Source of the DNA: Modestobacter marinus
GTDB taxonomy: Bacteria > Actinomycetota > Actinomycetes > Mycobacteriales > Geodermatophilaceae
Direction of reading: 5' to 3'
Assembly: GCF_011758655.1 (NCBI RefSeq)
Contig: NZ_JAAMPA010000003.1
Coordinates: 124,001-188,000, forward strand
Length of the DNA stretch: 64,000 nucleotides
Positions within the stretch are counted from its first letter, which is position 1; each line of letters starts with the position of its first letter. The position numbers were made by a program, and so were the translations under genes. The notes beneath the pieces are model-generated. The model did not search any database. It worked only from the letters and a program-made list of their open reading frames with translations, and was not told where the DNA came from. Of the stretch, positions 1 through 6,293 are shown piece by piece.

Positions 1-459
1 GGCCGGCTTCCAGATCCCGGCGTCCTCGACCGAGAGCAGCGCCTCGAACCGGTCGCGGACGCCGGCGCTGGTGAGCAGGCGCTCCGAGACCGCGGTCGAG
101 CCGTTGGTGAGGGTGACCAGGCGCCGGCCCTCGTCCCGGAGGGCACGGATCCCGTCGGGCACGTCAGGATGGACGGGCAGTGACCCGAAGCCCGCCAGCA
201 CGTGGTCGACGGCCTCGTCGAGGTCACGGTCGAGGTCGATCCCCTGCAGCACCGTGCGGAGGGCATCGGCGCCGATCTCGGCGAAGGGCCGGGAGGCGCC
301 GACGGCGGTCAGCGCGAAGCCGTCGCGCAGCAGCGAGGCGAACCACTGCTTCGCGAGGTGGGCGGGTGCGCCCACGTCGGTGAACCGCCCGGCCATCGGG
401 CTCATGTCCGACAGGGTCTCGTTGACGTCGAAGACGATGACGGACGGCGAGGTGGTCAC
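1..459 (-). CDS. Haloacid dehalogenase, type II (HAD superfamily), partial
   Basis: Predicted L-2-haloacid dehalogenase, which hydrolyses the carbon-halogen bond of 2-haloalkanoic acids through an aspartyl-ester intermediate in the cytoplasm. Only the first 153 codons are present; the frame is still open at the left edge of the window. The nucleophile motif D-V-N-E-T-L starts at Asp11, the second HAD motif T-N-G-S is at residues 118-121, and the conserved Lys of the I-W-K-P segment is Lys151. The GTG start at 459 overlaps the TGA of the DehI gene by 4 bases (GTGA), so translation is probably coupled. HAD motifs alone do not prove the substrate; the neighbouring DehI and Asp-nucleophile hydrolase make organohalide turnover the best guess. 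Confidence 0.85.
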   Translation of the reverse strand, partial: MTTSPSVIVFDVNETLSDMSPMAGRFTDVGAPAHLAKQWFASLLRDGFALTAVGASRPFAEIGADALRTVLQGIDLDRDLDEAVDHVLAGFGSLPVHPDVPDGIRALRDEGRRLVTLTNGSTAVSERLLTSAGVRDRFEALLSVEDAGIWKPA

Positions 460-1271
460 GGCGGGCTCCAGGCGGGAGGAGGACGGGTGTGGCGGCGGGT
501 CTGTGCGACGTCGGTGCTCGAGGCCACGAGGACGAGGACCCGCGGCAGGGTCGCGAGGTAGGCGTCCAGCACGGCGGCCATGCCGGGGCGGGCATCGGTC
601 AGGCCGGCCTCTTCCAGGGCGGCCGGCGAGGCGGCGACCCGCCACGGGAGGCCGCGCGCGACCTCGGACGCCGTCGCCTGCAGCTGGTCGGCGGCCCCTC
701 GGGTGGCCGCCACCTGGGGGCCTAGCGCCGCCCAGGCCGGCTCGAGGAGGTCCCGTCCGGCCAGCGAGCGCCAGACGGTGTTGACGATCGGCGTCTCCAG
801 CGCGGCGCAGATCTCGCCGTACAGCCGCGGCGCCGGGGCGTCCGCGGGGGAGGGGGCGGGGTCGGGTGGCTGCACCGGGCGGGGTGCGGGGGCGTTCCCC
901 GGCGCGGACGGCAGGTCGAGGTCGCCGTCCAGCGCGAGGCGCAGCCCGGCGACCAGGAGCAGCATCCGGCTCAGCGGACCGGCGAACTCCGCCAGGGCGC
1001 CGCGGACCTCGGTGTCGGCCGGTGGGGCCGCGACCGCACGCACCGAGGTGACGAGCTGCTGGGCCGCCGACCGGTACTCCTCGCGCGGCAGCACCGGGGC
1101 AGCCTGTTCGTGGGCCAGCACGAGGTACCCCGGGCAGAGGGCCAGGGACTTGAACAGGCTCGGGACGAACGGCATGCCCTCGAGCAGCTCGGCGTAGACG
1201 GCGGCGACGACGCCGGTGGCGTCGGCCTCCTCCACCATGGGGTAGCTCGCCATCACGGCATCAGTGGGCAC
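456..1271 (-). CDS. DehI-family 2-haloacid dehalogenase
   Basis: Resembles the DehI (group I) 2-haloacid dehalogenases, which are unrelated to HAD enzymes and displace the halogen by direct water attack; characterised members act on D- and L-isomers. The 271 residues hold the family's two tandem modules: an N-terminal copy (about 8-125) with A-V-Y-A-E-L, P-F-V-P-S-L-F and L-R-L-A-L-D-G, and a C-terminal copy (about 150-255) with L-Y-G-E-I, I-V-N-T-V-W-R-S-L-A and L-L-E-P-A-W-A-A-L. A Pro/Ala-rich linker (about 120-147) joins them. It overlaps the upstream hydrolase by 11 bases if it starts at ATG 1271; ATG 1253 is an alternative. It overlaps the HAD gene by 4 bases. Assignment rests on motif memory, not a search. 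Confidence 0.75.
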   Translation of the reverse strand: MPTDAVMASYPMVEEADATGVVAAVYAELLEGMPFVPSLFKSLALCPGYLVLAHEQAAPVLPREEYRSAAQQLVTSVRAVAAPPADTEVRGALAEFAGPLSRMLLLVAGLRLALDGDLDLPSAPGNAPAPRPVQPPDPAPSPADAPAPRLYGEICAALETPIVNTVWRSLAGRDLLEPAWAALGPQVAATRGAADQLQATASEVARGLPWRVAASPAALEEAGLTDARPGMAAVLDAYLATLPRVLVLVASSTDVAQTRRHTRPPPAWSPP

Positions 1272-2106
1272 GGTCGTCCTCCGGCGACGGGACGAGCAGG
1301 TCGTTCACGGCAGCCGCGACGACCTCCGGGTGGTCCTCGGGGGTGAAGTGCTTGCCGCCCGGGATCGGCCGCAGGGTCGTGCCGAGGTCGGCGGCGAGGC
1401 GGCGTCCGTACTCGACCTTCTGGAACTGGTCGACGTCACCCCACACTACGCGGGCCGGCAGGCCGAGTGAGGGCAGCCGGTCGGCGACGGCGAGGGTGTC
1501 GGCGACGTCGAGCGCGGCGACCTGGCGCATCAGGCTGCGGGCGGCGCCATGGGAGACGTAGTGCTGCCAGTGCACCCCGATGGACTCCAGCGCCCGGGCG
1601 CGGTCGTCGTGACCGCGGTGGATCAGCTGGACGAAGGAGGGGTAGAGGGCCAGCTCCGGCAGGTACCGCAGGACCGGTGCGCCGCGCTGCATGGCCTTGA
1701 CGCTGGGGATGGGCCAGGAGTCGTAGCAGACGGCGTTGGTGAGCACGATGCCCGAGAACCTGCTGGGCTCCCGGACGGCCGCGATCTGGGCCACCCCGCC
1801 GCCGAGGTCGTGGCCCACGAGGACCGCCGACTCCACGCCCACCAGGTCCAGCCAGCGCAGCAGCCGATCGGCCTGGGCGGCCAGCCCGAGGTCCCGGCCC
1901 TCACCGTCGGGGATGGAGCTGCCGTACCCGGCCAGCTCCAGCGCCAGCGAACGGCCGTCGACCAGCGGCATGACGTGGCGCCACAGCCGCGGCGAGGTCG
2001 GGATCCCGTGGACGAGGACGACGGGCGGTCCGGCACCGTGCTCCAGCCAGCGGATCGGCTCGCCGTCCAGGAGGTCCTCCTGCAGGTGCATGCCCGGCCC
2101 CGTCAC
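1261..2106 (-). CDS. Alpha/beta hydrolase with Asp nucleophile (haloalkane/fluoroacetate dehalogenase or epoxide hydrolase type)
   Basis: Cytoplasmic alpha/beta-hydrolase of 281 residues if translation begins at GTG 2106, which overlaps the VKOR-like stop as GTGA; ATG 2091 (Met6) is the alternative. The oxyanion-hole H-G-I-P is at 33-36. The nucleophile elbow is G-H-D-L-G-G with Asp100 in place of the usual Ser, the acid lies in G-D-V-D near 223-226, and the catalytic His is His253. An Asp nucleophile is the hallmark of haloalkane dehalogenases, fluoroacetate dehalogenases and soluble epoxide hydrolases, which cannot be separated from sequence alone. Its place in an overlapping operon with two further dehalogenase families favours a dehalogenase. 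Confidence 0.75.
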   Translation of the reverse strand: MTGPGMHLQEDLLDGEPIRWLEHGAGPPVVLVHGIPTSPRLWRHVMPLVDGRSLALELAGYGSSIPDGEGRDLGLAAQADRLLRWLDLVGVESAVLVGHDLGGGVAQIAAVREPSRFSGIVLTNAVCYDSWPIPSVKAMQRGAPVLRYLPELALYPSFVQLIHRGHDDRARALESIGVHWQHYVSHGAARSLMRQVAALDVADTLAVADRLPSLGLPARVVWGDVDQFQKVEYGRRLAADLGTTLRPIPGGKHFTPEDHPEVVAAAVNDLLVPSPEDDRAH

Positions 2107-2696
2107 GACCGGCCGCGCAGACGGCGGAGGGCGGCCCGCGCCTCGGGGAGTGCGAACGGCAGGGTGGCGACCTGGGCCACGGCGGCGACGGTGCACCAGG
2201 AGCAGACCTTGCGGTGCTTGGTGACCTGCTCGGCGAAGAGGTAGAGGCCGCCGCCGGCGTCGGCGGCGGTCTTCGCGGCCAGGGCCAGCGGTACCCACGG
2301 CATCGTCCGGGCCCGGTTCCGGTCGCCCATCCCGGCCAGGACCAGAGTGACGCCGGCACTGAGCAGCCCGAGGGCGGCGTCCGGGGTCCGCAGCTCCTGG
2401 TAGGCCTCCCCGGCGGCGTCCACGGCATCGGCGCCCAGGAAGGGCAGGGGCAGCTCCGGGACCCGGCGCAGCACGCCGAACTGGTAGAGCCCCACCACGC
2501 CCAGCGCGGCCGACGCCAGCGAGGTCAGCCCGGCCACCCGGCGACGCTGTTCCAGGAAGTCGCCGGCGCCGCGGCGCAGGTCGTCACTCACGCGCTCCGC
2601 CGCCGGCGAGCTCGAGCGGCCGATGCCTCCCGACCGCGGTCGTACGGAAGCGGCCTCCGGTCCGGCAGGACGGCGTCGTTCCGTCGTCGTTCGCAT
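2103..2696 (-). CDS. Vitamin K epoxide reductase (VKOR)-family membrane protein
   Basis: Small polytopic membrane protein of 197 residues with about four hydrophobic segments (around 55-75, 108-123, 133-150 and 165-185). Near the C-terminus it has C-S-W-C-T (Cys167/Cys170), the position of the quinone-facing CxxC of VKOR enzymes, which reoxidise thiol-disulfide partners. I see no second Cys pair, unlike canonical bacterial VKOR, so a redox partner would have to supply it. The ATG at 2696 is preceded by a strong GGAGGAGGA site. It is the first gene of the operon running into the hydrolase, DehI and HAD genes. Family assignment is moderate; a MauE/DoxX-like role is possible. Confidence 0.65.
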   Translation of the reverse strand: MRTTTERRRPAGPEAASVRPRSGGIGRSSSPAAERVSDDLRRGAGDFLEQRRRVAGLTSLASAALGVVGLYQFGVLRRVPELPLPFLGADAVDAAGEAYQELRTPDAALGLLSAGVTLVLAGMGDRNRARTMPWVPLALAAKTAADAGGGLYLFAEQVTKHRKVCSWCTVAAVAQVATLPFALPEARAALRRLRGRS

Positions 2697-2759
2697 GGGG
2701 TCCTCCTCCGATCGGGTACCCGGGGCATGCCCCCTGACGTGCCGGTGAACCGCGGGCGC

Positions 2760-2789
2760 GGGCAGGCCCTCCTCTCGGAGGACCTGCCC
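2760..2789 (-). terminator. Hairpin between CMD gene and VKOR operon
   Basis: Two 13-base arms (2760-2772 and 2777-2789) pair around a 4-base loop; read on the minus strand the only non-Watson-Crick pair is U-G. It sits 33 bases past the stop of the 2822-3364 gene and 64 bases before the VKOR-like start. It is most likely an intrinsic terminator without a U-tract, as is common in high-GC actinobacteria, or an attenuator for the downstream operon. Confidence 0.65.
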
Positions 2790-2821
2790 ACGCCGTCGTG
2801 CGCGCTGGTGCGCCCGACGGA

Positions 2822-3364
2822 TCAGAGCGCAGGAGCCGGCGGGAGGTCCAGGTCGGTCTGCACCAGGTGGTTGAAGTGGTTGGTGAAGAGGTTGAGCGCG
2901 ATGTGCACGGACACCTCGGTGAGCTCCACGTCGCTCCAGCCGGCGTCCAGCGCCGCCTGCCAGGTCGTGTCCTCGACCGTCCCGACGTTGCCGGTCGACT
3001 CGCGGACCAGCGCGAGCAGCGCGGCGAGCTTCGGGTCCTCGTCATAGGAGCCGGCGCGGATGGCGACCGTCTGTTCGGTGCTCAGCCCTGCCGCCTTCGC
3101 ACCGCCGGTGTGGGCGGCCTGGCAGTAGCGGCACTCGTCGACGTCCGCGACGACCAGCGCGATCGCCTCACGTGTGGCGGCGTCGAAGGTGCCGTGGTCG
3201 GCGATGACGTCCTGCAGCGCCGCATAGCTCTGGAGGACCACCGGCGCGTGGGCCATGGCCCCGTGGATGTTGAGCACCTTCCCGAACCGGGCCTCGAGCG
3301 CCTTGAGCGGGTCGCGGCTGCCCTCGGGCGCGTCGGCGACGGTGTGGACGGGGATGCGGGTCAT
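2822..3364 (-). CDS. Carboxymuconolactone decarboxylase/AhpD-like peroxidase family protein
   Basis: Protein of 180 residues in the AhpD-like fold family. The active-site signature C-R-Y-C-Q-A-A-H puts Cys78, Cys81 and His85 in the CxxC-x3-H arrangement used by alkylhydroperoxidases to reduce peroxides through a redox disulfide. ATG 3364 is preceded by GAGGAG; the leader (CCGATC, then GAGGAG, then CCCC before ATG) closely resembles that of the VKOR-like gene at 2696, suggesting shared ancestry or regulation. A terminator-like hairpin follows. The physiological substrate is unknown; peroxide or organic hydroperoxide detoxification alongside the dehalogenase operon is plausible. Confidence 0.85.
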   Translation of the reverse strand: MTRIPVHTVADAPEGSRDPLKALEARFGKVLNIHGAMAHAPVVLQSYAALQDVIADHGTFDAATREAIALVVADVDECRYCQAAHTGGAKAAGLSTEQTVAIRAGSYDEDPKLAALLALVRESTGNVGTVEDTTWQAALDAGWSDVELTEVSVHIALNLFTNHFNHLVQTDLDLPPAPAL

Positions 3365-4435: not shown

Positions 4436-5167
4436 GTGGACCTCGGGCGGTGGACGGCGCGGCTCCGCGCTGACGCCGCGGAGCTGACCTCGCAGGAGAT
4501 GCAGATCCGGGATGCCGCGTGGATCGCCCGGTGCGTGGGACGGGGCGCGGCAGCCCCGCTGGGCCCCGAGGACGTCGCCGCCCTCGCCGGGCGCATCACC
4601 CCCGCCGAGTTCCGGAGGGGAGAACCGGTCTTCGGTGGCGGGGCCGGTGACCGGCCCGGTGTGTGGATCGTCCGCAGCGGCCACATCGAGCTCGGCGTCG
4701 CGACCCCGCGAGGGAGGGTCGTCGTCGGGGTGCTGCGCCCCGGCGACGTCGAGGGAGACCTCCCGCTGCTGCTCGGCCTCCCGGTGCCGTACTCGGCGCG
4801 TGCGGTGGACGACACGGTGTGCCTCTACCTGTCGCCGGCCGACTTCGAGTCGCTGCTCGGCCGGCACCCGGCCGTGTCCCGGCGTTGGCTGTCCAGCGTG
4901 GCGCAGCGGCTGGCCACCAGCCACGGTCGGCTGATCTCGCTGCTCGGACGACCCCTGGTGGCCCAGGTCGCCGGCCTGCTGCTCGACGAGTCGGACGAGG
5001 GGGTGGTCCGGCTGCCGCAGCGCACACTCGCGGCGATGCTCGGTGTGGCCAGGCCCTCGCTCAACAAGGTGCTCAAGGACCTGGAGCGGCGGGGCCTGGT
5101 CGTCCTCGGCTACGGGGCCATCCAGCTGCTGGACGGCGACGGGCTCCGGCGGGTGTCCGACGCCTGA
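4436..5167 (+). CDS. Crp/Fnr-family transcriptional regulator
   Basis: DNA-binding regulator of 243 residues. A cyclic-nucleotide-binding-like beta-roll covers about 45-150, and a winged helix covers about 170-235 with L-P-Q-R-T-L-A-A-M-L-G-V-A-R-P-S-L-N-K as the helix-turn-helix. No Fe-S cysteine set as in Fnr is present, and the phosphate-binding R-S of true CRP is not evident, so the ligand is unknown. The start is GTG 4436, with GGGAGG nine bases upstream. It converges on the UAG-containing AhpD-like gene, so its targets are not implied by an operon. Confidence 0.85.
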   Translation: MDLGRWTARLRADAAELTSQEMQIRDAAWIARCVGRGAAAPLGPEDVAALAGRITPAEFRRGEPVFGGGAGDRPGVWIVRSGHIELGVATPRGRVVVGVLRPGDVEGDLPLLLGLPVPYSARAVDDTVCLYLSPADFESLLGRHPAVSRRWLSSVAQRLATSHGRLISLLGRPLVAQVAGLLLDESDEGVVRLPQRTLAAMLGVARPSLNKVLKDLERRGLVVLGYGAIQLLDGDGLRRVSDA

Positions 5168-5327: not shown

Positions 5328-6293
5328 TCAGCGGTGGGCGGGGATCCCGAGCAGGCCGGCCACGAAGTGGAGGCGCTGGGGCACCGGGCACCCGGTGGCA
5401 TCGAGGATGCGGTTCATCATCTCGAAGTTCGCGCACACGCCGACGGCTGCGGCGGTCACCCGAGGGTCGGCCGCGCGGGTCAGTGCCTCGCGGCTCTCGT
5501 CGAGCCGCAGCCCGGTCGCCATCGCGGTGGCGAGGTCGCGGAGCTCGCGTCCCCAGCGGAGCCCGGGATCGATGTCGGTGTCGGTGACCGCACGGAGGTC
5601 CGCGGGCGTCCCGGTCGTCTTCTGCACACTCGCACGGAGCATGTTCGCGTGGGCGATCAGCTAGTAGAAGCAGTCGTTGAGCAGTGACACGCGGGCGGCG
5701 AGCAGCTCCATCTGAGCGCGGGACAGCACGTCCTGGTACGCGAGGTCGGCCATCTGCTCGGTGCTCAGGTAGAGCTGGCTGTGGAGCTGGTCCCGAGCCT
5801 CCTCCTCGGCCGGCACGGAAGAGAGCGCGAAGCGTGCACCGTCCTCGGGGTCGGTGGGCACGAAGGCACTGCGCCACCGGACCTGCTCGTTGCGTCGACC
5901 CGTGGGCTCGCCCGACCCGGGCTCAGGGAGGGGCTCCTCTGTGGAGCCGACTCCCCGCACGTAGGAGTCCACGGCCGCCAGCCGGCTGACCACGCCCACG
6001 ACCTCGACGTACTGCTCGACGGCCATGCCCCGGGCCTGCAGGTCGGCGACCCAGTCCCGCGTGATGAGGTGGGCGGCGGCCGACACCGACTGCGCAGCCT
6101 CGCCCAGCAGGACGGGGAGTCCCGTGTCCCCGTCGCCGAACGTGCGTGCCGCGCGCGCCTCCCGGGCGACGGCCACCCGTTCGGGCCCGGTGAGCCACGA
6201 CCCCGCGGCGGCCAGCCGCGTCCACTCGCGGCGCAGCTCTGCCCGTACCGCATGCGGTAAGGGCAGCACGGCATCGGCCAGTTCGAAGCTCAC
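5328..6293 (-). CDS. AhpD-like peroxidase family protein with in-frame UAG at the active site (candidate UAG-encoded selenoprotein)
   Basis: The frame from GTG 6293 (GGGAAGG eight bases upstream; GTG 6302 is an alternative) encodes 210 residues to N-D-C-F-Y. A TAG codon at 5661-5663 follows, then 110 further codons in the same frame to TGA at 5328. Across the TAG the protein reads C-F-Y-X-L-I-A-H, exactly the CxxC-x3-H signature of AhpD-type alkylhydroperoxidases: Cys208, X211 and His215, with X at the peroxidatic cysteine. The part after TAG keeps typical family features, including a second helical stretch with V-G-V-C-A-N-F-E-M-M-N-R. Residues 1-140 are a less conserved all-helical domain. 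The simplest reading is selenocysteine inserted at UAG, supported by the hairpin at 5625-5643 and by published UAG-programmed selenoproteins in Geodermatophilus and Blastococcus (recalled, not checked). A nonsense-mutated pseudogene is the alternative. Confidence 0.8.
5625..5663 (-). promoter_or_regulatory. UAG codon with downstream SECIS-like hairpin
   Basis: UAG occupies 5661-5663. Counting downstream on the minus strand, bases 18-24 (5637-5643, CAUGCUC) pair with bases 30-36 (5625-5631, GAGUGUG) in a 7-bp stem with two G-U pairs, capped by the 5-base loop CGUGC, whose second base is G. The loop begins 25 bases after the recoded codon. As I recall the bacterial SECIS model, it needs an apical loop about 16-37 bases after the codon with a G in its first two positions, and this fits. 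The hairpin lies in coding sequence, as bacterial SECIS elements do. The pairing is by eye. Confidence 0.55.

Follow-up and report, generated by a model that had tools for sequence, protein, structure and literature searches.

The incorporation of selenocysteine (Sec) at UAG codons in Geodermatophilaceae is published (Mukai et al. 2016, cited in PMC5330540), as the earlier note on the DNA studied here had correctly stated; the accessible text of PMC5330540 gives formate dehydrogenase, a UGSC-motif protein and AhpC as its targets. The NCBIfam family NF041238 (AhpD_rel_CFYUT, alkylhydroperoxidase-related (seleno)protein) figures as a CxxU selenoprotein family in a 2026 review (PMC13188914), according to which it is the same as “hypothetical protein 1”, a member of the Sargasso Sea selenoproteome (PMC1088965).

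Both the UAG-Sec code of this bacterial family and the selenoprotein family NF041238 are already known, but their combination appears to be new: we found no paper joining the two in the open-access literature (the original 2016 article lies outside that scope), and no AhpD-related protein was found among the targets given in the accessible text of PMC5330540. Here, we describe such a combination in Modestobacter marinus, in a stretch of 64,000 nucleotides (contig NZ_JAAMPA010000003.1, positions 124,001 to 188,000), referred to below as the window. The host assembly comprises 5.1 Mb in 12 contigs. As far as the system is presented in PMC5330540, the one described here has in common with it a tRNA-Sec with anticodon CUA, UAG as the putative Sec codon, and formate dehydrogenase as a predicted target.

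A gene of the NF041238 family with a single in-frame TAG

The gene occupies positions 5328–6293 of the window on the minus strand, running from a GTG start codon (6293–6291) to a TGA stop codon (5330–5328). Its frame consists of 321 sense or recoded codons, and the sole internal stop is a TAG at positions 5663–5661 (residue 211), in the translated context LLNDCFY-UAG-LIAHANM; no further lesion is present. When read through, the protein of 321 residues scores 222.5 bits against NF041238, for which the curated cut-off is 175, and the recoded stop takes the second active-site position of the CxxU motif (CFY-UAG, residues 208–211). The complete motif, C208-x-x-U211-x3-H215, is encoded at 5649–5672 (minus strand); none of the aligned homologues deviates at C208, at residue 211 or at H215. 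The residue following U is Leu, while the UGA-encoded members of NF041238 have Val, Thr or Leu there; the Thr in the name of the family is a naming feature and not a defining one. Under the standard code, the frame yields a stub of 210 aa and, apart from it, an ORF of 104 aa at 5642–5328 (minus strand). The earlier note had described a frame with one stop, a TAG falling on the second Cys of a CxxC-x3-H site, and had foreseen a split into proteins of these very lengths; both observations hold.

Among 149 near genomes searched, we identified five NF041238 genes above the cut-off (that of M. marinus included), each of which has exactly one TAG, at CFYU. The four other carriers are Modestobacter sp. 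DSM 44400, Modestobacter caceresii, Blastococcus sp. DSM 46786 and Geodermatophilus chilensis, all of which also have a tRNA-Sec(CUA). Fourteen homologues from outside the Geodermatophilaceae, mostly from Acidimicrobiia, carry TGA at codon 211. The comparison of residue 211 among homologues, as had been proposed, thus yielded TAG in 5/5 family orthologues, TGA in 14/14 others and a Cys codon in none of the 19 homologues read. Like the members of NF041238, the M. marinus gene scores above the cut-off, has CFYU as its motif with a single Sec at the corresponding position, and features a hairpin downstream (see below); it differs from the UGA members by its Sec codon, UAG.

An ordinary Cys enzyme turned into a pseudogene by a nonsense mutation or a sequencing error would also feature a stop codon within the frame, and the distribution of the gene is indeed patchy (5 of about 90–115 family genomes), implying that it is dispensable; no relative of the selenoprotein was found in the plasmid records searched. 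However, the same TAG is kept in five genomes of three genera, at 71–82% protein identity to the window’s copy, and this sharing amongst orthologues already refutes a pseudogene. Furthermore, pN/pS in ten orthologue pairs ranged between 0.25 and 0.41 before the UAG and between 0.31 and 0.44 after it; by this sequence-based measure, purifying selection persists downstream and is equal on both sides of the codon. Base composition by codon position is likewise similar on either side. The transition to TAG from a Cys codon, as from TGA, takes two base changes, so that one nonsense mutation of Cys cannot produce it. The conservation of the TAG in five orthologues, the similar pN/pS on both sides and the need for two base changes together argue that the codon did not arise by chance, consistent with the earlier judgement that a random nonsense mutation was unlikely. 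With Cys absent from this codon in all 19 homologues read and the frame otherwise intact, a pseudogene is extremely improbable.

Selenocysteine machinery and a second predicted UAG selenoprotein

The contig that contains the window also encodes the tRNA-Sec with anticodon CUA (G000:C3:284342-284433, where G000 stands for this genome), which matches the Rfam model over all 91 positions with 65.8 bits (cut-off 47). A selD-type gene directly adjoins it, and selA and selB lie some 8 kb further on the same contig; the SelA match scores 319 bits, and both the GTPase and the SelB-wing domains are present in SelB. The tRNA-Sec(CUA), selA, selB and selD, for which a search of the genome had been suggested, have therefore all been found.

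A second match above the cut-off of RF01852 (C1:958002) was rejected as a tRNA-Sec because it is a tRNA-Ser, and therefore exceeding this cut-off is by itself no proof of a tRNA-Sec. ARAGORN, in turn, names the CUA tRNA “tRNA-Pyl” from its anticodon. This label and the tRNA-Ser scoring over the Rfam cut-off for tRNA-Sec are both traps for automatic annotation.

Taken at face value, the ARAGORN label would imply that UAG is read as pyrrolysine; reading by a general amber suppressor tRNA would be a variant of the same idea. However, by Rfam, the CUA tRNA is a full-length tRNA-Sec, with few differences from the family’s tRNA-Sec(UCA) outside the anticodon loop. Moreover, no PylS above the cut-off occurs in the genome (the best match attains 21.9 versus 178 bits), and in every homologue from outside the family, codon 211 is the Sec position, encoded by UGA. 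We consider the chance that UAG stands for pyrrolysine or for a suppressor’s amino acid to be negligible, and selenocysteine is the reading retained below.

In addition, we identified a TAG in the gene for the alpha subunit of formate dehydrogenase (G000:C1:884086-886986), in the context ENQARI-U-HSATVPGLG, which we take to be the standard Sec position of this enzyme. The codon is followed by a strong hairpin, GGUCCCC-GGUCU-GGGGACC, of which the GGUCU loop, we assume, resembles that of the Escherichia coli formate dehydrogenase SECIS. Formate dehydrogenase, located at G000:C1:886246-886986 within the alpha-subunit locus, is the second predicted UAG selenoprotein of this genome.

A SECIS-type hairpin downstream of the UAG

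A SECIS-type apical hairpin, GCUC-CGUGC-GAGU, is located at 5628–5640 (minus strand); its start lies 23 nt from the UAG’s first base. The pattern GCUC-NGNNN-GAGY occurs at that same offset from the codon in 19/19 genes, be they UAG or UGA genes, so that all of them have, shortly 3′ of the codon, a hairpin whose apical loop includes a G, as in bacterial SECIS elements; elsewhere in the 18.6 kb of these 19 genes, the pattern occurs only twice. Consensus folding recovers the hairpin, and all cells pair. Since its inner three pairs (out of four) are invariant across the alignment, there is no support from covariation, and the support comes instead from the position and from codon choice and synonymous constraint. 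Leu219 is specified by CTC and Ser222 by AGY in all 19 genes, while CTC makes up 44% of their Leu codons and AGY 43% of their Ser codons. Over the 15 codons that follow the UAG, the five close orthologues show a synonymous diversity within the lowest ~4–5% of windows, which points to only moderate synonymous constraint. When downstream stretches were folded singly by minimum energy, they had no structure in common; the shared hairpin came to light only once UAG and UGA genes were aligned together. Rfam yielded no match at the selenoprotein gene.

The hairpin also bears on a third explanation, in which the UAG simply terminates translation and separate proteins of 210 and 104 aa cooperate, read-through being rare or absent. 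An ATG seven codons past the UAG starts the 104-aa ORF, and selection on both halves would look identical in such a case. Against this, the split would cut the catalytic motif and one predicted helix (residues 209–227), in NF041238 members from outside the family the two halves are linked through UGA, and the hairpin is located where SelB would require it. We therefore deem termination at the UAG very unlikely.

At the level of the gene, codon 211 almost certainly specifies selenocysteine. The family match, the tRNA-Sec(CUA) with its sel genes, the distribution of TAG and TGA amongst orthologues and the hairpin all support the UAG-encoded selenoprotein that the earlier note had put forward, and the full-length Sec protein is presumably produced.

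Predicted fold and active site

The structure predicted for the read-through protein has a pLDDT of 90.6 and a pTM of 0.91. AhpD-type structures match its residues 140–313 (Z 10–14), and a Pfam CMD domain (residues 182–221) is found above the cut-off, as is the TIGR00778 domain. Against the classic AhpD subfamily, TIGR00777, the protein scores 17 bits with a cut-off of 191.95, in keeping with a related fold that is not classic AhpD. E196, C208, residue 211 and H215 are invariant in the aligned homologues and are spaced E-x11-C-x2-C-x3-H. We take E118, C130, C133 and H137 to be the catalytic residues of Mycobacterium tuberculosis AhpD, and the second Cys of its CxxC, at the position of Sec here, to be the one that attacks the peroxide. 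As the catalytic spacing is the same, Sec would replace the peroxide-attacking Cys. M. tuberculosis AhpD (1gu9, 1knc) and the M. marinus protein share the AhpD fold (Z ~10) and the E-x11-C-x2-C-x3-H spacing, whereas the latter is set apart by Sec for the second Cys and by an extra N-terminal half of ~140 residues, with 13–15% identity between them. Fold and residues point to an alkylhydroperoxidase, and peroxide reduction is the likeliest guess for the reaction, one we favour somewhat.

Over its whole length, the best structural match of the model is human sestrin 2 (residues 1–302, Z 16.2 over 236 residues, 16% identity). This suggests an architecture of two tandem AhpD-like halves, similar to sestrins, with the Sec site in the predicted C-terminal lobe; the match is uninformative about function, and high scores come readily to helical folds.

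In the mechanism that we propose, tRNA-Sec(CUA), charged through SerRS, SelA and SelD, would be delivered by SelB, which would bind the hairpin that begins 23 nt from the UAG’s first base, and codon 211 would be decoded as selenocysteine. Sec211, at the position that the second Cys has in the CxxC-x3-H site of AhpD, would most likely attack a hydroperoxide or similar electrophile; C208 would then resolve the intermediate as a selenenylsulfide, which a thiol partner would reduce.

Genomic neighbourhood

The convergent neighbour of the selenoprotein gene encodes a Crp/FNR-type regulator (4436–5167, plus strand), which has a counterpart of 79% identity close to the M. caceresii orthologue and is a possible regulator of the selenoprotein gene. 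A cluster at 456–3322 of the window (minus strand) specifies a 271-aa protein, an alpha/beta hydrolase (1261–2298), a VKOR-family protein (2103–2696) and a CMD-domain protein (2822–3322), the last being a second protein of AhpD/CMD fold, with an ordinary CxxC. The cluster, of which the CMD, VKOR and hydrolase genes lie 2–5 kb away from the selenoprotein gene, also occurs near the orthologue in two other genomes, Modestobacter sp. DSM 44400 and Blastococcus. These neighbours suggest a redox setting for the selenoprotein gene.

A codon switch within the Geodermatophilaceae

The anticodon of tRNA-Sec is UCA in genera g6, g8 and g10 and CUA in g1, g4, g5, g11 and g12, a division that covers the family tRNA-Sec genes whose anticodon was read (loci L046–L051 and L054 versus L052–L079). 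Because the genera are split in this way, the codon switch occurred inside this family. The tRNA-Sec genes with either anticodon show little difference outside the anticodon loop, and the formate dehydrogenase of genus g8, with tRNA-Sec(UCA), has TGA at its Sec site. We propose that the anticodon would have changed from UCA to CUA within the family and that the selenoprotein codons would have followed in step, from UGA to UAG. In the window, TGA closes 32/33 or 35/36 well-supported ORFs (two rough counts); by passing to the rarer UAG, Sec may have come to compete less with termination.

One genome (G036) of g5, the genus of G. chilensis, harbours a divergent tRNA-Sec(UCA) (81.8 bits) besides a tRNA-Sec(CUA); the loci concerned are L080, L027 and L045 (contig C17:1-12000) and L079 (contig C11). 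The UCA tRNA gene lies 0.3–0.4 kb from an AhpD-like UGA gene (CFYU-MESHAEF, with the hairpin GCAGA-GUU-UCUGC), in a transposase-rich contig end of 62–72% GC that continues into ordinary sequence of 75–79% GC. The region is either an imported cassette or a misassembly. Only one SelB above the cut-off is present in G036. That this genome reads both UAG and UGA as Sec, with the respective tRNAs served by the one SelB, is conceivable, albeit somewhat doubtful.

If this were true, the tRNA and its target gene would form a portable Sec-decoding cassette, restoring UGA decoding in a UAG lineage, and, provided that the G036 assembly is right, one cell may employ two stop codons for selenocysteine. Genes such as the one described here are missed by annotation pipelines, and one common tool calls the cognate tRNA “Pyl”. 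An AhpD-related enzyme would join the few UAG-encoded selenoproteins known from nature, its SECIS-type hairpin being retained while the codon differs, UGA outside and UAG inside the Geodermatophilaceae. With UCA in three and CUA in five of the genera examined, this family allows the switch to be dated on a tree.
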